A program made the translations under genes and the position numbers. Shown here piece after piece: positions 1 to 10,650 of a stretch of 64,000 bases of DNA. Origin of the DNA: Spirochaetia bacterium (GTDB taxonomy: Bacteria > Spirochaetota > UBA4802 > UBA5550); the NCBI GenBank assembly GCA_009885955.1, contig VFJS01000054.1, positions 62,001 through 126,000 on the forward strand. The letters run 5' to 3'. The notes under the pieces are model-generated. The model was not told the DNA's origin and ran no database searches. It saw only the letters and a program-made list of their open reading frames with translations. Within the stretch, counting starts at the first letter, position 1. Every line of letters starts with the position of its first letter.

Positions 1-794
1 CACATTTTAATCCCCTCTTCAGATTGCTTTTCCTTGGGGACAGACTTAAGGCGCTGAATCAGTTCATCAGGAATATCCATGCCGGGAACCTTATTTTTCA
101 TGTAGTTTGCCATGCCCACGGACTTGAACGGGGTAACCCCGGCCAGGATATAGACCTTTTTGTGCAGGCCCCTCTCCCTTAATCCTTCCATCCACTTCTC
201 AAACTTGTCCATATTATATATACACTGTGTCTGAATAAACTGGACACCGGCATTAATTTTTTTCGCAGTCCTGGGGACCCGTATTTCAAAAGGGTCGGCA
301 AAGGGATTCTCCGCGGCCCCGATGAACATTTTAGGGGGATCTACAATAGGGTCGCCGCCGAGAAATTTGCCTTCATCGCGCATTAATTTTACCGTCTGGA
401 TGAGCTGTATGGAATCCATGTCATATACATTTTTTGCCTTCGGATTATCTCCAAACTTCTGGTGGTCGCCTGAAAGACATAGAATATTGCTGATTCCATG
501 GGCGGCAGCGCCGAGAATATCGCTCTGGATGGCTATGCGGTTTCTGTCCCTGGTGACCATCTGCATAATCGGCTCCAGGCCCATCTGCTTCAGCAGAATG
601 GATGCCGAGATGCTGGACATTCTAACAACAGCTGTCTGGTTATCGGTGACATTTATGGCATCAACGCAGTTCCTCAAAAGTTCGCCCTTTTTCTTTATTG
701 TTTCCGGGTTTGTCCCCCTTGGCGGGCCGCACTCCGAGGTTACGACGAATTCCCCTTTTTCCAGGAGTCTTGAAAGTTTGCTTTCCGGAATCAT
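1..794 (-). CDS. metF: Methylene-tetrahydrofolate reductase MetF (C-terminus cut by window edge)
   Basis: Reduces methylene-THF to methyl-THF in the methyl branch of the Wood-Ljungdahl pathway. About 264 codons are present and the frame is still open at base 1. Visible family features are the barrel start SECGPPRGT, the segment VTRDRNR and the SGDHQ loop near residue 110. The ATG at 792-794 overlaps the metV stop (ATGA), with GGAGG about ten bases upstream. Its place directly after metV, mvhD and the hdr genes matches the acetogen MetFV-HdrABC-MvhD arrangement, where MetF works with MetV and receives electrons from the Hdr module. A second metF paralogue lies at 9775-10650. The family is secure; the electron donor is inferred from context. 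Confidence 0.93.
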   Translation of the reverse strand, partial: MIPESKLSRLLEKGEFVVTSECGPPRGTNPETIKKKGELLRNCVDAINVTDNQTAVVRMSSISASILLKQMGLEPIMQMVTRDRNRIAIQSDILGAAAHGISNILCLSGDHQKFGDNPKAKNVYDMDSIQLIQTVKLMRDEGKFLGGDPIVDPPKMFIGAAENPFADPFEIRVPRTAKKINAGVQFIQTQCIYNMDKFEKWMEGLRERGLHKKVYILAGVTPFKSVGMANYMKNKVPGMDIPDELIQRLKSVPKEKQSEEGIKM

Positions 795-1459
795 AGCGTT
801 AAATCCTCCCTCACAATCCTTCTAAGTCCGCCGTCGCGGCTTGTTGACCAGTCCTTTAAAGGAATTATCTCTTCATAGGCATCGGTGAGCCCGAGCTCTT
901 TTAACCTGTCATAGATCAGCTGCCAGCCGCAGGAGATGTCCTTGTGAATTTCACATTTCCCCAGTGACGATCCGCCGCAGGGGCCGTTCAACAGACTCTT
1001 TGCGCACCTCGTTATGGGGCATATCCCGCCGGTCCTGTCCAGGATGCAGTTGCCGCACGTCTGGCACCTTTCAGTCCATATGCCCTGTTTTTCAGTCACT
1101 CCGACAAAATTCGTGTTTATGGCAGGGAGGATGATTTTTGATTTGTACATCTCCGCGCAGTACTGAACACCTGCCCCGCAGGCCAGGGAGAGCACAGCAT
1201 CATAGTTATTTATGTATCCCCTCATCAGCACCAGGTATTCGGTGTCGCATTGCCTCTCCAGGGTTTCTTCCTTTATTTCAATCGGATTATTATCCTTTGC
1301 CCTTGCAAGTCTAATGGTTGATGACAAAACTTCCACCTCTTTCTTTCCGCCTGCTGAACATACGGTAACGCATCCCTTGCATCCGACGACAAGGAGCTTT
1401 TTTTTATCTGATATCATGGATAGAATTTCCTCTATCGGTTTCCCTTCGCCTATTACCAT
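791..1459 (-). CDS. metV: MetV, zinc/iron-sulfur partner of MetF
   Basis: A 222-residue protein of the methylene-THF reductase C-terminal (MetV) family, the small partner of MetF in acetogens. Cysteine groups are visible at CKGC-x3-C near residue 28, CQTCGNC-x8-CP near 135-150 and C-x3-LLNGPCGGSS near 155-165; the last block is typical of the family. The start has GGGGG five bases before the ATG. It overlaps metF by four bases, so the two are probably translationally coupled. A 127-bp dispersed repeat separates it from mvhD upstream. MetV is thought to link MetF to the HdrABC-MvhD electron source; that role here is inferred from gene order. Confidence 0.88.
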   Translation of the reverse strand: MVIGEGKPIEEILSMISDKKKLLVVGCKGCVTVCSAGGKKEVEVLSSTIRLARAKDNNPIEIKEETLERQCDTEYLVLMRGYINNYDAVLSLACGAGVQYCAEMYKSKIILPAINTNFVGVTEKQGIWTERCQTCGNCILDRTGGICPITRCAKSLLNGPCGGSSLGKCEIHKDISCGWQLIYDRLKELGLTDAYEEIIPLKDWSTSRDGGLRRIVREDLTL

Positions 1460-1696: not shown

Positions 1697-2143
1697 TCAT
1701 ATCGCCTCTTCAATATCCTCCATAATCACCGCGTTTCTGGGAATGGAACTGGGCCCGAGCTTCAGTATCCTCTCAGTCATTTCCTTTGCAATATTCACGA
1801 ATTTTACCCCGTCCCCGGCAGACAGGTTAAACATCTCAATGCGTTCGGGCTCGAGGCCTATGGTTTCGAGGATCTTCTTTGCCTTTACAATCCGTTTCCG
1901 CGCCCGTATGTTCCCCACCATGAAATGGCAGTTCCCCTCCTCGCAGCCAACGATATAAATCCCGTCAACACCGCTCTCCAGTGTCTTGAGAATAAACACA
2001 ATGTCCACCTTGCCGGTGCACGGCACTCTTACGATTCTAATACTCGCCGGATACTCCGCCCTCATCGAACCTGCCAGGTCCGCAGCTGAATACCCTCAGT
2101 AACTGCAGCAAAAGGCAATGATCAATGGTTCAAATCCGCTCAT
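1697..2143 (-). CDS. mvhD: MvhD/VhuD-type hydrogenase iron-sulfur subunit with in-frame UGA (selenoprotein)
   Basis: A 148-residue iron-sulfur subunit that passes electrons between an electron-input protein and HdrA in Mvh/Hdr complexes. The ATG at 2141-2143 directly follows the stop of the HdrA fusion. The frame reads MSGFEPLIIAFCCSY, then TGA (2096-2098), then GYSAADLAGSMR. Family members usually have CC-x2-C-SYAGADLAG here, so UGA falls exactly on a conserved metal-binding cysteine. The rest of the protein aligns well through VGCEEGNCHF and the C-terminus. A stem-loop right after the UGA suits a bacterial SECIS. Ordinary gene calling would start at Met27 and lose the first cluster ligands. 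Selenocysteine is inferred, and supported by VhuD in methanococci being a known selenoprotein. Confidence 0.88.
2066..2098 (-). promoter_or_regulatory. Putative bacterial SECIS element after the mvhD UGA codon
   Basis: The UGA is at 2098-2096. On the coding strand, bases 2082-2076 (CGGACCT) pair with 2072-2066 (AGGTTCG), giving seven base pairs with one G-U around a three-base GGC loop. The loop guanine is 21 bases after the UGA, inside the spacing known for bacterial SECIS elements recognised by SelB, which need a guanine in the apical loop. The fold was drawn by hand and no energy was computed. Confidence 0.6.
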
Positions 2144-5100
2144 TTAATTTACCCCTATGGAATTTTTAGATTTTGCTAATATCTGCTCGTCCCTGTAATG
2201 CTGCAATACAATGGCCTTGCCCGGGCATTCGCTCACGCAGGTTCCGCACCCCTGGCACAGGACAGGATTGATTTCAGCCGTGCTCTCTTCATTGATCACC
2301 GGAACTCCGAAGGGGCAGGCCCGCACGCATGTCAGGCATACAGCGCAGAGCTCAGGATTGACCCTGGCAATCACGCTCTCGGCTACAAGTTTGTCTTTTG
2401 AGAGTATGATGGCGGCCCTGGCTGCGGCAGCAGCTGACTGGGAAATGGTCTCCTCAATGAGCTTGGGAAGATGCGCCATCCCGGCCACAAATACACCCTC
2501 CGTGGAAAAATCAACGGGCCGGAGCTTCATGTGCGCTTCAAGATAGAAATTGTCTTCCGACCTGTTAATCTTGAGGAGGCCGGCCATGATCTCGTTTTCT
2601 TTGGGTATTACCGCGCTTGAGAGTATAAGGAGGTCGGGTCTGAAATCGAACCTGGTTTTCAGAACCGGGTCGGCAGCCGACACCGTGAGCCTCCCGTCCT
2701 TCATGGAGACCACGGGTTTCTCACTCAGATCGTACCTGATAAAAATGACGCCCTTCTCCCGTGCCTTTGTGTAATATTCCTCGTAAAGGCCGTAGGTTCT
2801 TATGTCCCTGTACAGGACATATATCTTCATTGCCGGGTTGATTTCCTTGAGCTTCAGCGCGTTTTTAACGGCATGGGAACAGCAGATCCTGCTGCAGTAG
2901 GGGCGCTCCTCGTTCCTGGAGCCCACGCACTGGATCATGACGATCTCCTTCATGGCCTTCACGGCCGTTACATCTCCCATGATCATCTTTTCCAGTTCCA
3001 TCTGGGTGAGCACTGAACTGTTCTCCCCGTAGAGATATTCTGCCGGCCGGGCCTCATCTGCGCCGGTGGCCACGATGGCGATGCCGTGCTCTATTTTCAC
3101 AGACCGGAGGCCGGCCCCGACGATGAGGCTCGTGGTAAAATTACCCTTATATCCCTCGACGTTGTCAATCTCCGCGTTTTTGATGACCGTTACCCTTGGG
3201 TGGGACTCTGTCTTCCGGATGAGGTCCTCAAGGTAAGCCTGCACATCGTCCCCATGGATTGTATAGAAGACATGCCTGAGGTTCCCCCCGAGTTCCGATT
3301 CCTTCTCAATAAGGGTAACATCATACCCCATGTCGCCCAGTTTCAGGGCCGCGGTCATTCCCGCGTTGCCCCCGCCTATGACAAGGGCGCTGTGGTTAAC
3401 CTCCAGGGTAATCTCCTGGAGCGGGGCAAGGAGCCTGGCATTGGCAACGGCCATTCTGACAAGATCCTTTGCCTTTTCCGTTGCCTTGCCCTTCTCGTTC
3501 ATATGGACCCAGGAACACTGGTCACGTATGTTTGCCATTTCATAGAGGTACTTGTTAAGTCCCGCTTCCCGTATGGTTTCCCGGAACAGGGGCTCATGGG
3601 TCCTGGGCGAGCATGCCGCAGTAACTACCCTGTTCAGGTTATGCTCTTCGATGAGGCCTATCATCTTTTTCTGGTTGTCCTGGGAGCAGGTGTACAGGCA
3701 GTTGTCTGCGTAGGCGACGCCGGGCAGTGTTTTCGCATAGTCCCTCACAGCCTTGACGTCAACGACGCCGGCAATATTGATGCCGCAGTGGCACACAAAG
3801 ACGCCGATCCTCACCTCTTCAGCCGATGTATCCTTTTCATCAGGGTATGACTGTTCTTCGATGAGCTCCCCCCTGGCCGAGGATATGATGCTCCCGGCGT
3901 AGGCTGCGGCGCCGCTCCCCTGGGTGACGGTCTCCGGGATGTCCTTGGGGGTCTGGAATGAGCCGCTTAAAAATATCCCCTCCCTGGAAGTAGTCAGCGG
4001 CTCAAAGGTGGTTGTCTTGCAGAAGTTATGGCGGTTGAGTTCAATCCCGAGCCTCCCGCAGAGATCGATCCCCTTCTTCGAAGGCCCGATACCTACTGAG
4101 AGGACCACCATGTCGAACTCCTCTTCGGTTTTCTTCCCCTCTTCATTAATATATGCCACGATGACATTCCTGTTCGCGGGCCTCTCGTAAAGCCCGGAAA
4201 CCATGGAACGCACATATCTCACACCGTACTGCGATATGGCCCTCTCGTAATAGGTGTCAAAGCCTTTACCAAAAGCCCTGATATCCATGAAAAATATGGT
4301 GGGCTCAATGTTGCCGTCGTGTTCCTTGGCGATGACCGCCTCCTTCGTGGCATACATGCAGCAGACCGACGAACAGTAATCCCTGTTGCACGATATGTCC
4401 CTGGAGCCGACGCACTGGATCCATGCCACCTTGCGGGGATGCTTTTTGTCCGAAGGCCTCATGATTTCACCGCTGAAGGGTCCCGAGGCAGACAGGATTC
4501 TTTCAAACTCGAGGCTGGTGATGACGTTCTGTATATTTCCATATCCGAATTCGCTCTTCATTTTAGGATCAAAGGTATCGAATCCGGGGGCAAGGATTAT
4601 GGAGCCCACCTCGATTTCAACCACTTCGTCCACCTGCGTATAATCAATGGCCCCGGCCTCGCATACATCCTGGCACATTTTGCACTGGCCGCTATTGAGG
4701 TATACGCAGTAATTCCTGTCAATTGCCGGCGTGTTAGGCACGGCCTGGGGATAGGGGAGATATATGGGATGGCGGGAATTTAAGCCCTCATTAAATTCTG
4801 ATGGTATGGGCATTGGCCTGCGGCCGGTGATGTCCTCGATTTTAATCGCATCCGTGGGGCATACGGAAATGCAGGCGCCGCATGCGATACAGGCATCGGC
4901 ATGTATCTTAAACGGCGTGCCGACCTTCATGTCCATGCCGCGGTCGATCATGGTTATGGCACTCCGGCCTATCCTCTCCTCGCATACGCGGACGCACAGG
5001 CCGCAGAGTATGCACCTGTCGTTACCAATCTTGAAACGGGGTTCCTTAATACCGTATTTTTCAGCGAGTCCCCTGAGGATCTCCACGTCCGGGCACCTTG

Positions 5101-5383
5101 CAAGGAGGAGTTCGATGATGGTTTTGCGCGCCATCATGACGTCCCCGGTTTCGGTAAAGACCTCAAGGCCGTCTGTGATGGGAAAATTGCACGATGTCAC
5201 GAACCTGTCCCTTTTCCCCTGCACTATCTTCACTGTGCACAGGCGGCATGCCCCCTGTGCCTCCAGGACGGGATGATAGCAGAGGGTCGGGATGGTGATG
5301 CCGCTCTTGATGGCCACCTGTAAAATGGTCAGCCCTTCTTCAGCTTTTATTTTTTTTCCATTAATAATTACATCTATCATCAT
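2144..5383 (-). CDS. hdrA: Fusion: NuoG/HoxU-like ferredoxin module + HdrA C-terminal part + second HdrA
   Basis: A protein of about 1,079 residues in three parts. (1) Residues 1-190: a [2Fe-2S] domain (C-x10-C-x2-C-x15-C from Cys35) and two [4Fe-4S] motifs (CILCGLCVRVC, CIACGACISVCP), as in NuoG/HoxU; the His-Cys3 cluster seen in HoxU is not recognisable. (2) About 195-500: HdrA sequence starting in the middle of the family (EFNEGLNSRHPIYLPYPQAV), including IQCVGSR, YCSSVCC and PKDIPE. (3) About 525-1079: a second HdrA from VCHCGINIAGVVDV through the FAD motif VIGGGNAGM near 670 to two C-terminal ferredoxin motifs. The missing N-terminal part of the first HdrA is the small protein at 7779-8195. 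The ATG at 5383 is preferred (GGGG six bases upstream) to a TTG at 5398. Expected role: the flavin core that receives NADH electrons from NuoEF and bifurcates them. Confidence 0.9.
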   Translation of the reverse strand: MMIDVIINGKKIKAEEGLTILQVAIKSGITIPTLCYHPVLEAQGACRLCTVKIVQGKRDRFVTSCNFPITDGLEVFTETGDVMMARKTIIELLLARCPDVEILRGLAEKYGIKEPRFKIGNDRCILCGLCVRVCEERIGRSAITMIDRGMDMKVGTPFKIHADACIACGACISVCPTDAIKIEDITGRRPMPIPSEFNEGLNSRHPIYLPYPQAVPNTPAIDRNYCVYLNSGQCKMCQDVCEAGAIDYTQVDEVVEIEVGSIILAPGFDTFDPKMKSEFGYGNIQNVITSLEFERILSASGPFSGEIMRPSDKKHPRKVAWIQCVGSRDISCNRDYCSSVCCMYATKEAVIAKEHDGNIEPTIFFMDIRAFGKGFDTYYERAISQYGVRYVRSMVSGLYERPANRNVIVAYINEEGKKTEEEFDMVVLSVGIGPSKKGIDLCGRLGIELNRHNFCKTTTFEPLTTSREGIFLSGSFQTPKDIPETVTQGSGAAAYAGSIISSARGELIEEQSYPDEKDTSAEEVRIGVFVCHCGINIAGVVDVKAVRDYAKTLPGVAYADNCLYTCSQDNQKKMIGLIEEHNLNRVVTAACSPRTHEPLFRETIREAGLNKYLYEMANIRDQCSWVHMNEKGKATEKAKDLVRMAVANARLLAPLQEITLEVNHSALVIGGGNAGMTAALKLGDMGYDVTLIEKESELGGNLRHVFYTIHGDDVQAYLEDLIRKTESHPRVTVIKNAEIDNVEGYKGNFTTSLIVGAGLRSVKIEHGIAIVATGADEARPAEYLYGENSSVLTQMELEKMIMGDVTAVKAMKEIVMIQCVGSRNEERPYCSRICCSHAVKNALKLKEINPAMKIYVLYRDIRTYGLYEEYYTKAREKGVIFIRYDLSEKPVVSMKDGRLTVSAADPVLKTRFDFRPDLLILSSAVIPKENEIMAGLLKINRSEDNFYLEAHMKLRPVDFSTEGVFVAGMAHLPKLIEETISQSAAAAARAAIILSKDKLVAESVIARVNPELCAVCLTCVRACPFGVPVINEESTAEINPVLCQGCGTCVSECPGKAIVLQHYRDEQILAKSKNSIGVN

Positions 5384-5394
5384 GGCAATCCCCG

Positions 5395-7305
5395 TCAATT
5401 AATAACTACAGATTTAAAGTTGCAGACTTCAAAGCATACCCCGCACTTGATGCACTTTTCCTGGTGGATTACATGGGGTGTCTTCTTCTCGCCGGATATG
5501 GCCTCCTGCGGGCATTCCTTGGCGCAGCGGACGCATCCGGTGCATTTCTCCGGGTCTATGGTATACGTGATGAGGGCCTTGCACACGCCGGCAGGGCATT
5601 TTTTATCTATGATGTGGGCCTCGTACTCATCCCTGAAATATTCCAGTGTCGTAAGGATTGAATTGGGGGAAGTGCTCCCGAGGCCGCAGAGGGCAGTCAT
5701 CTTTATGCTCCGGGACATTTCAAGCAGAAGGTCGATATCCTCCTCTTTCCCCTCCCCGTTGCATATGCCGGTAAGGATCTCATGGAGCCGGTAGATCCCC
5801 TCGCGGCACGGCACGCACTTGCCGCAGGATTCATCCTTGAGGAAATCGATGAAGTACCGCGCGATGTCGACCATGCAGGTATTTTCGTCCATCACGATCA
5901 TCCCCCCGGAGCCCATCATGGACCCGACCTTGGTGAGCTCGTCAAAATCAACGGAAAGATCAATGAGCCGTTCCGGGATGCACCCACCTGAAGGGCCGCC
6001 GGTCTGAACAGCCTTGAACCTCTTTCCGCCGGGGATACCGCCGCCGATATCATAGATGATCTCCCTGAGGGATATCCCCATGGGTACTTCGACCAGGCCG
6101 GTATTATTTATTTTACCCACCACGGAAAAAACCTTGGTCCCGGCGCTTTTCTCTGTTCCGATTTTTTTGTACCAGCCGGAACCCCTTGAAATAATTGTAG
6201 GCACGTTGGCCCATGTCTCAACATTATTCAGGTTGGACGGGCTGTCCCTGAAGCCCCTTTTCACCGTGTGGATATATTTTGCACGCGGACGTCCAATCTT
6301 CCCTTCGAGAGAAGCCATGAGGGCCGTGGATTCACCGCATACAAAGGCACCTCCGCCCCTTGATATTTTTATATCAAAATTAAAACCTGACCCGAAAATA
6401 TTTTCACCGAGAAATCCGCATTCATGGGCCTTGTCAATGGCAATCCTGCATTTTTTTACCGCAAGGGGGTATTCATTCCTGACATAGATATACCCCTGGC
6501 TTGAGCCTATGGCATAGCCGCCGATTATCATCCCTTCGATTACGCTGTGGGGATCCCCCTCCATGATACTCCGGTCCATGTAGGCCCCGGGGTCTCCTTC
6601 ATCGGCGTTGCATATGATATACTTGCTCTCGCCCTTTGCGTTCCTGCATGTTTCCCATTTAATGCCCGTGGGGAAACCGCCGCCGCCCCTACCCCTGAGC
6701 CCCGATTTCTTTATCTCATCGACAACCTCTTCGGGCTTTAACCCTGAAAGTACCTTGTACAGGGGGTAATACCCCCCCCTGGCAATATATTCCTCAATAG
6801 AGTCGGGGTCGATAAGCCCGCAGTTGTTAAGGGCAATTTTCAGCTGTTTTTTATAAAAGCCAAGGTCCGATATGAGGGGGATGTCTTTTATTCCTTCTAT
6901 GATACCGGTGAGCGGGTAATCCCTCATGGACCCGTCAACCGAGGAGCTGTCTTCCGTCACCCTGGCCAGTGCCCCCTTCCCGGTCAAACCACCGTCGGCA
7001 AGTTCCTTTACTATACCCGACAACTGGTCCGGTGTTACACGCGAATAAATCAATTTGGGATAACCCGGGAATGTAATGTCTATTAAAGGCTCAATCTGGC
7101 AGAAGCCAAGGCAGCCCGACCTGGCAACCAGGGCATCGATCTTGAATTTTTCCAGTTCCTCTAAAAGCTGGTCATACAGACGCCCGGCGCCTGTTGATAT
7201 GCCGCAGGTGGCCATGCCCACGTTTATCTTGATCCTGCCCGGGTAGATCCGCTTCAAACCGCTCTCTTTCAATGAATTAAGTTTTTCAATCGTTGCATAG
7301 CTCAT
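5395..7305 (-). CDS. NuoF/HoxF-like NADH-oxidising flavoprotein
   Basis: A 636-residue diaphorase subunit that exchanges electrons between NAD(H) and iron-sulfur clusters through FMN. Order of domains: thioredoxin-like [2Fe-2S] domain (about 25-110), FMN/NAD part with GLRGRGGGGFPTG and NADEGDPGAYMDR (about 205-245), the [4Fe-4S] motif ESCGKCVPCREG near 500, and two C-terminal ferredoxin motifs (CTGCVRCAKECP, CIKCGVCFEVC). This layout is that of HydB/HoxF proteins of bifurcating enzymes. It follows nuoE after 13 bp and lies between the two HdrA pieces, so it is probably the NADH site of the Hdr-MetFV complex. A paralogue is at 57377-59314. Confidence 0.92.
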   Translation of the reverse strand: MSYATIEKLNSLKESGLKRIYPGRIKINVGMATCGISTGAGRLYDQLLEELEKFKIDALVARSGCLGFCQIEPLIDITFPGYPKLIYSRVTPDQLSGIVKELADGGLTGKGALARVTEDSSSVDGSMRDYPLTGIIEGIKDIPLISDLGFYKKQLKIALNNCGLIDPDSIEEYIARGGYYPLYKVLSGLKPEEVVDEIKKSGLRGRGGGGFPTGIKWETCRNAKGESKYIICNADEGDPGAYMDRSIMEGDPHSVIEGMIIGGYAIGSSQGYIYVRNEYPLAVKKCRIAIDKAHECGFLGENIFGSGFNFDIKISRGGGAFVCGESTALMASLEGKIGRPRAKYIHTVKRGFRDSPSNLNNVETWANVPTIISRGSGWYKKIGTEKSAGTKVFSVVGKINNTGLVEVPMGISLREIIYDIGGGIPGGKRFKAVQTGGPSGGCIPERLIDLSVDFDELTKVGSMMGSGGMIVMDENTCMVDIARYFIDFLKDESCGKCVPCREGIYRLHEILTGICNGEGKEEDIDLLLEMSRSIKMTALCGLGSTSPNSILTTLEYFRDEYEAHIIDKKCPAGVCKALITYTIDPEKCTGCVRCAKECPQEAISGEKKTPHVIHQEKCIKCGVCFEVCNFKSVVIN

Positions 7306-7318
7306 ACTGATAATCCGC

Positions 7319-7786
7319 TCATTCGTATTTTTTTAGAATTTTCGGCAGGGCATCCTGTTTAAGCCTGCCGTGGGTATCCTCGCCTACATTTATGACCGGC
7401 CCCAGGCTGCAGCATCCGATGCACCTCACGGTCTGCAGTGAAAATTTCATGTCACTGCTCGTCCCGCCGGCCTTAATCCCCAGTTCCCTCTCAATCTTTT
7501 CAATAATTTTCCCGGCCCCCCTTACGTGGCAGGCCGTCCCGGTGCATACACTTATAACATGCCTCCCCCTGGGCTCCAGGTTAAGGGCCTTGTAATAGGT
7601 GGCGACGCTGTAAACCTGGCTCACGGGGATACAGAGCCTTTCGGCAACTATTTTCATCCCCTGCTCCGGGATATAGCTGTATTCGCTGTTTATATCCTGT
7701 AAAATGTGCAGGAGGTTTTCCGAATCAGCCTCGTACTTATCCATGACAATGGAATCTATCTTCTTAACATCAATCTCATTAACCAT
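7319..7786 (-). CDS. NuoE/HoxE-like thioredoxin-fold [2Fe-2S] subunit
   Basis: A 155-residue NuoE-family subunit that partners the NuoF-like protein just downstream. The [2Fe-2S] ligands are visible as CTGTACHVRG and CIGCCSLGP in the second half. The helical N-terminus includes ILQDINSEYSYIP, typical of the family. I place the start at the ATG at 7784-7786, with GGAG seven bases upstream; this overlaps the end of the small HdrA gene by eight bases, which suggests translational coupling. A longer reading from 7819 would have a poor start and no homologous extension. Confidence 0.92.
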   Translation of the reverse strand: MVNEIDVKKIDSIVMDKYEADSENLLHILQDINSEYSYIPEQGMKIVAERLCIPVSQVYSVATYYKALNLEPRGRHVISVCTGTACHVRGAGKIIEKIERELGIKAGGTSSDMKFSLQTVRCIGCCSLGPVINVGEDTHGRLKQDALPKILKKYE

Positions 7787-8195
7787 GCATCGGCTCCTTC
7801 TCCTGAGGGAAATAGGCAATATTTGTCACCGGGCATGTGTTGTAACATAGCCCGCACCCGGTGCACTTTTCCTGGTCAATATATCTCGCCCTTTTATTTA
7901 TCTTTACCCTGAACCTGCCGGGTTCGCCGTCCACCTGGAGAACATCGGAATAGGTGATGAGTTCGATATTGGGATGGTTCCCCACCTCAACGAGCTTGGG
8001 TGATATGATGCACATGGCGCAGTCATTCGTGGGGAAGGTCTTATCGAGCTGGGCCATCCGCCCGCCTATAACCGGGGAATCCTCCACAAGATAGACCTTG
8101 AATCCGGAATTGGCAAGGTCCAGGGCAGCCTGCATGCCTCCGATGCCTCCTCCCACGACCATTACCGAACCGGTTACCTTATTAGTATCAGCCAT
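7779..8195 (-). CDS. hdrA: Split HdrA, N-terminal FAD-binding piece
   Basis: A 138-residue protein that matches only the N-terminal portion of HdrA: the dinucleotide motif VVGGGIGGMQAALDLANSG, GGRMAQLDKTFPTNDC and PKLVEVGNHPNI, then one ferredoxin motif CTGCGLCYNTCP. It stops where complete HdrA proteins continue into the segment that is found inside the large fusion (EFNEGL..., about residue 195 there). It is not random decay: the ATG at 8195 follows hdrB by one base, the stop overlaps nuoE, and all motifs are intact. I infer that the two polypeptides assemble into one FAD-binding HdrA. Confidence 0.85.
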   Translation of the reverse strand: MADTNKVTGSVMVVGGGIGGMQAALDLANSGFKVYLVEDSPVIGGRMAQLDKTFPTNDCAMCIISPKLVEVGNHPNIELITYSDVLQVDGEPGRFRVKINKRARYIDQEKCTGCGLCYNTCPVTNIAYFPQEKEPMHG

Positions 8196-8196
8196 A

Positions 8197-9057
8197 TTAC
8201 AGCCCCTTTTCCGACAGTAATTTTCTTGGATCAACCTGGTGTTTCATAAACCAGGAACCTGCATTGCCGCTTCCGAGGGCAAGCCCGATGAGCTCGGAAA
8301 AATAAAAAATGGGAATGTATATCTCCCTGGAAAATTGCCTTGAAACCTCATCCTCCCTTGTATCCAGGTTGGACTGGCACATGGGGCATGAGGTTACAAG
8401 GCACTCCGCCCCCGATTCCGCGGCCATATCCAGAATCCTGTTCACCTGATCCCTGACAATGTCGGTCCTCGTGATGGCAAGGCTCCCCCCGCAGCAGAAG
8501 GTCTTGAATGTCCAGGGTATGATCTCGGCCCCCAGGGCAGCCAGTATCTTCTCCATGCTCTGGGGATTGTCATGATCCGGGGCATCGGTAATTTTCGGAG
8601 GGCGGAGGGACATGCACCCGTAATAGGCCGCTATCTTCATGCCCTTCAGGGGCTTCACCAGCTTTTTCTCCATGGCCTCGAGAACAGTGCTCCCGGATAA
8701 AAGTGCTGTCATGTCAATAATGTTAATGGAACCGCGGAAGGTGCTCATGCCTTTGTATTTTTCATTGCTCAGAGCGTTTTTCTCTGCGAACTTCAGTCGG
8801 CTGAAACAGCCGGAACAGGGAACCACAAGGTCCATGCCGGTCTTTTCGGCAATCTCAAGATTCCTTGCAGCCAGCAGGAAAGAGGCTTTTTCATCCAGGC
8901 AGTGCGCTGATGTGGCACCGCAGCAGTTCCAGTCCCTGATTTCGTTCAGTTGAATATCAAGCATGGAACATATCTCTTTCAGGGATTCATTATACTCCGC
9001 AGCCGTACTCTCAAGGGAACATCCCGGATAATATCCTACCTTCATTTTTTTCTCCAT
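8197..9057 (-). CDS. hdrB: Heterodisulfide reductase subunit B-like protein
   Basis: A 286-residue HdrB-family protein. Two CCG domains are intact: PGCSLES...NCCGATSAHC with C-x2-C (CSGC) in the first half, and YGCMSLRPP...FCCGGSL with CPMC in the second. In methanogens such domains bind the non-cubane [4Fe-4S] clusters of the disulfide-reducing site. In MetFV-associated complexes of acetogens the true substrate of HdrB is unsettled. It lies between hdrC and the small hdrA piece, nine bases after hdrC. The family call is firm, the substrate is unknown. Confidence 0.93.
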   Translation of the reverse strand: MEKKMKVGYYPGCSLESTAAEYNESLKEICSMLDIQLNEIRDWNCCGATSAHCLDEKASFLLAARNLEIAEKTGMDLVVPCSGCFSRLKFAEKNALSNEKYKGMSTFRGSINIIDMTALLSGSTVLEAMEKKLVKPLKGMKIAAYYGCMSLRPPKITDAPDHDNPQSMEKILAALGAEIIPWTFKTFCCGGSLAITRTDIVRDQVNRILDMAAESGAECLVTSCPMCQSNLDTREDEVSRQFSREIYIPIFYFSELIGLALGSGNAGSWFMKHQVDPRKLLSEKGL

Positions 9058-9066
9058 AAACCACTG

Positions 9067-9579
9067 CTAATTAATTATTTTTTTGAATATTTTCTTTATA
9101 TCTCTCATTCCTTTAATCTTATGGGGAAACAGTTTTATTTTGCCTTTTTTATACATATCGTAACCCAGCTTGAGGTCATCAAAGAAATTACCGGATTTTA
9201 ATTTATATTTACCGAGCATCCCTAATTCATGGACCCTTCCATAGGATTTAATGGAGCTCATGAATGCTGAATGGAATAGATAAACATTCTTTCCGGCAGG
9301 CTTAAATCCTTCTCTCACGCATTCCTGCCGCAGCGCGTCCATGATGTGCGCGATATCTATCTCATTGGGGCATCTTGTGGTGCATGTTTCGCAGGAGGCG
9401 CATACCCAGATGGTTTCGCTGGAGAGAAGTTTCTCCTTCATCCCGAAATGTATCATCCTGATTATTACTGCCGGGGGAAAATCCATATACTGCGCGAAGG
9501 GACAGCCGGAGGAGCATTTCTGGCACTGGTAGCACCGGTAAATTTCGTTTCCCGTAAGTTCAGCAATCCTTTCAATCAT
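9067..9579 (-). CDS. hdrC: Heterodisulfide reductase subunit C-like ferredoxin
   Basis: A protein of about 170 residues with two [4Fe-4S] motifs, CYQCQKCSSGCP near residue 17 and CASCETCTTRCP near 60, followed by a helical C-terminal half rich in lysine. HdrC carries electrons from HdrA to HdrB. I chose the ATG at 9579, five bases after GGAAGG; a GTG two codons upstream overlaps that ribosome-binding site. It is the first hdr gene of the run. A dispersed repeat (9656-9747) separates it from the metF paralogue upstream. Confidence 0.92.
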   Translation of the reverse strand: MIERIAELTGNEIYRCYQCQKCSSGCPFAQYMDFPPAVIIRMIHFGMKEKLLSSETIWVCASCETCTTRCPNEIDIAHIMDALRQECVREGFKPAGKNVYLFHSAFMSSIKSYGRVHELGMLGKYKLKSGNFFDDLKLGYDMYKKGKIKLFPHKIKGMRDIKKIFKKIIN

Positions 9580-9655
9580 GGTCACCTTCCCTATTAAAAT
9601 CAGATATATCCATTATTTTCGAAAAACATACTTACTCTTTTCAGCATAAACCCTC

Positions 9656-9774: not shown

Positions 9775-10650
9775 CTATATCCCGATCGCCTCAAGAAAAA
9801 CCGGGAGCTTCATCTCCCATCCCAGGGGTATGATGACCACTCCCTGGCAGATTTCCCTGAGCCCTGATATTATTTCCGATGTGATGGCAATGCTCTCGAG
9901 CTGTTTGTCTCCGGCCCGCTGGAGCCTTTCTATGATTAACTCGGGTACATTGATATTGGCCACGTGCTTGTTGATGAACCTCGCTGTGGCTACAGACTTC
10001 AGTAGAATCAGTTCCGATAACACCGGAATGTTCGAATGATCCCTTACTTTTTTCACGAATTTTCCATACCTTTCAAGATCAAAAACCGCCGGGGTTATAA
10101 AATAATCGACCCCTCCATTTACAGCCTCATCCATTCGCCTTAATTCAGCATCCATTGCGTCTCCCGTAAAGCTTGAATTCAGGGAGGTGCCCATATGAAA
10201 AGAAGGGGCGCCGGTGAGTTTATTGCCTGTGAAGTCAAATCCATCCTGCATCTTTTTTGCAATGGCCACCAGCCCGTCAGAGCCTGTTTCATAAACCTCT
10301 TTCCCTTTCGGGTGATCTCCAGAGGTGATGTCTTCTCCATCGGTTATGTAAATATTTTTTATCCCCAGGGACACTGCGCCTAAAAGTTCACCCTGAAGAG
10401 CAAGGACGTTCCTGTCCCTGCAGGAAAAATTACACAGAACATCATAACCGTTTGCAATTAATTCACAGGAGGCGGCGATGGATCCCATGCGCATAACGGC
10501 CCCTTGCATATCGGTGACATAAAGGGCATCTACCCTGTTTCTTACGAGCCCGGCTATTGAATGGAACTCTGTAAAATCTGTTCCTTTCGGCGGATTTATT
10601 TCACTGAGATAGACAAATTTGCCGCTTTTCAGTTTTTCAATTATATTCAT
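9775..10650 (-). CDS. Second MetF-like methylene-tetrahydrofolate reductase
   Basis: A 291-residue MetF-family barrel. Visible features: SEINPPKGTD at the N-terminus, CRDRN near 95, ITDGED near 125, and the C-terminal segment SIAITSEIISGLREICQGV. The ATG at 10650 is preferred because AGGAGC lies six bases upstream and the protein then begins as the family does. It differs clearly from the edge metF (for example ITDGED in place of CLSGDH), so it is a paralogue and not a recent copy. It lies between the histidine kinase gene and hdrC on the same strand, and no second metV accompanies it. Confidence 0.85.
   Translation of the reverse strand: MNIIEKLKSGKFVYLSEINPPKGTDFTEFHSIAGLVRNRVDALYVTDMQGAVMRMGSIAASCELIANGYDVLCNFSCRDRNVLALQGELLGAVSLGIKNIYITDGEDITSGDHPKGKEVYETGSDGLVAIAKKMQDGFDFTGNKLTGAPSFHMGTSLNSSFTGDAMDAELRRMDEAVNGGVDYFITPAVFDLERYGKFVKKVRDHSNIPVLSELILLKSVATARFINKHVANINVPELIIERLQRAGDKQLESIAITSEIISGLREICQGVVIIPLGWEMKLPVFLEAIGI

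Follow-up and report, generated by a model that had tools for sequence, protein, structure and literature searches.

Among the prokaryotic selenoprotein families that have been listed is FrhD/MvhD/VhuD, whose motif is CxxU (PMC13188914; PMC2398784), and the role of MvhD, which passes electrons between its partners and HdrA, has been reviewed (PMC6019823). In bacteria, Desulfobacterium autotrophicum HRM2 has four MvhD copies that contain selenocysteine (Sec), namely mvhD1, 2, 3 and 5 (PMC2702500), and Desulfococcus multivorans has a single Sec-MvhD with its UGA upstream of a SECIS element (PMC5109826). An HdrABC-MvhD-MetVF complex has been described in Moorella thermoacetica (PMC5736913). Here, we examined an mvhD gene with an in-frame TGA that lies in a 64,000 nucleotide stretch of a Spirochaetia bacterium contig (VFJS01000054.1), hereafter the window (Table 1). 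From the sequence comparisons that follow, we conclude with a probability of about 0.97 that it is a selenoprotein gene, with SECIS-directed Sec predicted at codon 16 and a product that would act as an electron relay in a MetF-MetV-HdrABC-MvhD complex.

Table 1. Features in and around the mvhD cluster (window coordinates)
Feature	Position	Strand	Remarks
MetF, runs off window	1..794	-	MTHFR 1e-33; ATGA overlap with metV
MetV (DUF5981 / MTHFR_C), adjacent to mvhD on its downstream side	791..1459	-	PF12225 2.5e-37
mvhD coding sequence	1697..2143	-	148 residues, predicted Sec at residue 16; genuine stop TGA 1697-1699
Predicted Sec codon 16, in-frame UGA, CCxxU motif	2096..2098	-	TGA 64, TGT/TGC 14 in 78 homologues
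Bacterial SECIS element, predicted	2049..2095	-	fold z -2.2; 15-mer in 67/68 Sec genes; outer-stem covariation
Large HdrA-type protein, NuoG-like N-terminal [2Fe-2S]/Fer4 domain, abuts mvhD	2144..5398	-	start codon uncertain
NuoF-like NADH:FMN subunit	5395..7305	-	Complex1_51K 1e-44
NuoE-like [2Fe-2S] subunit	7319..7786 (start approximate)	-	2Fe-2S_thioredx 6e-48
Detached N-terminal part of HdrA, 138 aa	7779..8195	-	
HdrB, two CCG domains	8197..9057	-	
HdrC	9067..9585	-	
MetF-like protein, second copy	9775..10650	-	MTHFR 1e-23

Direct reading of the minus-strand mvhD frame (2143-1697) revealed a single internal TGA, at codon 16 (2098-2096). From the ATG at 2143, which is directly preceded by the hdrA TAA (2144-2146), the frame translates as MSGFEPLIIAFCCSY-UGA-GYSAADLAG and is then open to the TGA at 1699-1697. 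With the internal TGA translated as Cys, the product matched Pfam FlpD (PF02662) at residues 8-130, covering 123/123 model positions (E = 6e-48), and its alignment with solved MvhD chains (E 1e-31 to 1e-39) is free of gaps. A preliminary description of this DNA had placed the UGA at the same position, and its statements that homology continues across the UGA and that the ATG abuts the hdrA stop both hold. It had also anticipated that standard annotation would drop the N-terminus of MvhD and, indeed, ORF calling by standard rules returned only 1697-2065, a 122 aa frame that starts at Met27, so that the N-terminus is lost. A scan of the window sequence itself returned no obvious candidate for another UGA-interrupted gene. 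Between mvhD and metV, an inverted repeat (GCCCTCACCC ... GGGTGAGGGC; 1515-1640) with arms approximately 110 bp apart is perhaps a mobile or regulatory repeat.

A single substitution would convert the TGA to TGC or TGT, so that it might in principle be an artefact of sequencing or assembly, or mark a dying gene that has recently acquired a nonsense mutation. When 84,980 named species genomes were scanned once, 80 mvhD loci were returned, 78 of which were readable at codon 16 while the contigs of the other two start later. Codon 16 is TGA in 64 of the 78 and TGT or TGC in the remaining 14; TAA or TAG was found in none of the 78, and no homologue locus has an internal stop other than the codon 16 TGA. 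Within the relatives of the window genome, codon 16 is TGA in the three orthologues nearest to the window gene (71, 71 and 65% identity) and encodes Cys in the next ones, while two divergent paralogues do not have Cys in this column. The preliminary description had recommended an alignment of homologues for Cys/Sec columns, and this column is confirmed as one in the 78 sequences. Judged from the sequences, the presence of TGA at codon 16 of the homologues is more than chance. As the same TGA is found in dozens of independent genomes, an assembly error is excluded, and the TGA of the three nearest relatives, an otherwise intact mvhD in a conserved operon and a hairpin that is under selection only where TGA is present (see below) also make an error or a dying gene extremely improbable.

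All 68 Sec-16 genes of the window type fall into one group (83/91) when a tree is built from the proteins. At least two changes are needed to account for Sec at column 16 and one more for Sec at column 67. Thus, among the sequences in the tree, Sec was gained more than once at the cysteine positions of the MvhD family, or was lost and regained.

Downstream of the UGA, the predicted SECIS consists of an inner hairpin, GGACCU-GGC-AGGUUC, formed by nt 17/18-32/33 (2082/2081-2067/2066; numbered from the U of UGA) with the GGC loop at 2075-2073, and an enclosing outer stem in which nt 4-11 pair with nt 43-50. The G of the apical loop is nt 24 (2075), 21 nt past the A of the UGA, which is where the preliminary description had put it. 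The folding energy of this element is moderately below that of shuffled sequences (z -2.2; z -1.6 when a longer segment is folded). As folding energy is weak as sole evidence for a SECIS, we compared synonymous codon use in 68 Sec genes (mean pairwise protein identity 70%) and 18 Cys genes. All 68 Sec genes have GAC CTG GCA GGT at codons 22-25, and 67/68 have GCG at codon 21. The 15-mer GGACCTGGCAGGTTC is found in 67/68 Sec genes and 0/18 Cys relatives, and an exact copy of it occurs once in the whole window genome, in mvhD. Of 65 conserved degenerate codons in the Sec genes, the five that vary least are codons 21-25 (entropy 0-0.11), while the remaining 60 all vary synonymously, with a mean entropy of 1.46 bits and a minimum of 0.33. 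In the 18 Cys genes, codons 21-25 are ordinary (entropy 0.92-1.99). As these codons are all but invariant in genes with UGA and ordinary in genes with Cys, selection acts at the RNA level and is tied to the presence of the UGA.

The six inner-stem pairs, from 18-32 to 23-27, all form in 67-68 of the 68 Sec genes, and because this stem is invariant it yields no covariation. In the outer stem, the pair nt6-nt48 covaries: GGA is found with UAU 13:1 over UAC, and GGG with UAC 30:9 over UAU (Fisher 6.5e-6, with related sequences counted as independent; p 0.46 for a non-paired control site). Across the Sec genes the hairpin does not change, and in the Cys genes it has decayed.

The same conservation bears on whether the true product could be a shorter protein that starts at Met27 (ATG 2065), with the upstream frame as a leader and the conserved GGCAGGT as its ribosome-binding site. 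Met27 is invariant and has an AGG upstream, but it is just as invariant in the Cys genes, which are without the conserved DNA motif. The conservation also includes the 5' arm, GGAC, which is too distant upstream for a Shine-Dalgarno sequence, and a product from Met27 would be missing the cysteine motif that the family has near its N-terminus. A start at Met27 therefore has hardly any likelihood.

The genome from which the window derives (assembly G000; 4.77 Mb, 98% complete) encodes the Sec machinery. SelA was identified (E 3e-111), and selB lies directly after selA in contig 112, its product scoring above the curated cut-off and including the C-terminal SelB-wing_3 domain. SelD also scored above the curated cut-off and, as its gene (G000:C112:58989-59912; L024) contains one internal TGA, is probably a selenoprotein too. 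The genome also has a tRNA-Sec, with anticodon TCA (70.9 bits). Hence selA, selB, selC and selD, for which the preliminary description had recommended a search, are all present, and the absence of selB and selC that it had named as refuting evidence does not apply. SelA is also present in nearly all relatives of the window genome, and thus does not separate those with Sec from those with Cys.

Two further MvhD copies were found in the window genome. One paralogue (L012; G000:C70:328870-329277) has Cys at residue 16 and TGA at residue 67, which is also a conserved Cys column, and the same pattern was seen in L119 from a relative. The third MvhD (L013/L132; G000:C92:32785-33174) has TGA at residue 16 and is part of an hdrA-mvhD-nuoF cluster. 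In the Sec-16 paralogue clade made up of L013, L123 and L131, the corresponding place is taken by a different shared element, CTGGAGTTTCCAG. Judged from these three sequences, it is a putative SECIS that can form a hairpin of 5 bp closed by a GUU loop.

That several genes in this genome have a UGA that is read through could also be accounted for if UGA were a sense codon, e.g. for Trp or Gly, throughout the genome. However, mvhD, metV, nuoE and nuoF terminate at TGA, and the stop of mvhD in particular indicates that UGA has not been reassigned globally. In the mvhD copies, the UGA falls in columns that are Cys in relatives, SelD belongs to a known selenoprotein family and the Sec machinery is complete. 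We consider reassignment most unlikely.

The minus-strand gene order in the window is metF2, hdrC, hdrB, hdrA-N, nuoE, nuoF, hdrA-L, mvhD(Sec), metV, metF, and metV, metF, hdrA, hdrB, hdrC and mvhD are thus all in one cluster. When 5-kb flanks of the 80 loci were searched with the window proteins, metV was found downstream of mvhD in 63/64 Sec loci, the remaining one stopping at a contig edge, and HdrA was found upstream of mvhD wherever the contig extends far enough. The order hdrA-mvhD(Sec)-metV-metF is therefore the norm for the Sec-MvhD clade and not a peculiarity of the window. In three relatives that were inspected closely, HdrA is a single frame of approximately 1,490-1,510 codons. In the window (2144-8195), it is in two parts that are separated by nuoE-nuoF, one being the N-terminal 138 aa and the other a piece of 1,084 aa whose N-terminus is NuoG-like. 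No NuoF match was found near mvhD in the 5-kb flanks of any of the 80 loci. As the gene ends overlap or abut, a misassembly of the hdrA-nuoE-nuoF region is argued against. The preliminary description had tied MvhD to MetFV-HdrABC with NuoEF; this linkage is present, but its MetVF-Hdr part is normal for the clade and only the NuoEF insertion is unusual.

The split of HdrA around nuoE-nuoF suggests an NADH-linked methylene-THF reductase/Hdr complex. A more specific reading is tentative and on balance rather unlikely: the complex would be a variant of the bifurcating methylene-THF reductase, with an NADH-oxidising NuoE-NuoF-NuoG(N-terminal) module in place of the middle part of the long HdrA. If it were true, electrons could enter one HdrA core by either of two routes, Sec-MvhD or the NADH module.

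We infer that a ribosome that meets the UGA at codon 16, followed by the SECIS hairpin whose GGC apical loop begins 21 nt downstream, would not terminate, as SelB-GTP-Sec-tRNA(Sec) bound to the hairpin would allow Sec to be put in. The Sec would take the place of the third cysteine in the FlpD/MvhD CCxxC motif and, given the conservation of this position and the solved MvhD relatives, residue 16 probably either ligates the [2Fe-2S] cluster or lies close to it. MvhD would then connect HdrA with its redox partners as the electron relay of a MetF-MetV-HdrABC-MvhD complex, likely a Moorella-type methylene-THF reductase with flavin-based bifurcation, and gene order suggests that NuoEF probably lets the complex exchange electrons with NAD(H).

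The gene is found in dozens of genomes and is a case for annotation repair, as standard calling removes 26 residues and the conserved cysteine motif. The near-invariant 15-nt SECIS core, missing from Cys orthologues, is usable as a search signature and provides a natural experiment on which features a bacterial SECIS has to keep. Because paralogues within a single genome are predicted to have Sec at two distinct cysteine positions, both of them conserved, it could be tested how selenium affects a low-potential electron relay.

The preliminary description had set the window gene against VhuD of methanococci. This contrast was overstated, as bacterial Sec-MvhD had already been published; Sec-MvhD is known from both sulfate reducers and methanogens, and the window gene is not new in kind. 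The methanococcal Sec-containing VhuD and FrhD share PF02662 and the CxxU motif with the window MvhD (PMC13188914, PMC9312934), but have an archaeal SECIS in an untranslated region and a hydrogenase, not MetVF, as partner. In a solved relative, PDB 9sfi_K, the site aligned with Sec 16 is a non-standard residue (X), and a second X is found in the residue 67 column, which is Cys in the window MvhD. The Sec-MvhD of D. autotrophicum and D. multivorans are, like that predicted here, bacterial FlpD-family selenoproteins accompanied by Sec machinery (PMC2702500, PMC5109826). Both hosts are strictly anaerobic sulfate reducers in which the Sec-MvhD mostly adjoins hdrA, and the available excerpts mention neither a linkage to MetVF nor an HdrA split around NuoEF. 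The M. thermoacetica complex has the same subunit set and gene linkage as the window, which differs from it in that nuoE-nuoF lies within hdrA and in the Sec that MvhD is predicted to carry.
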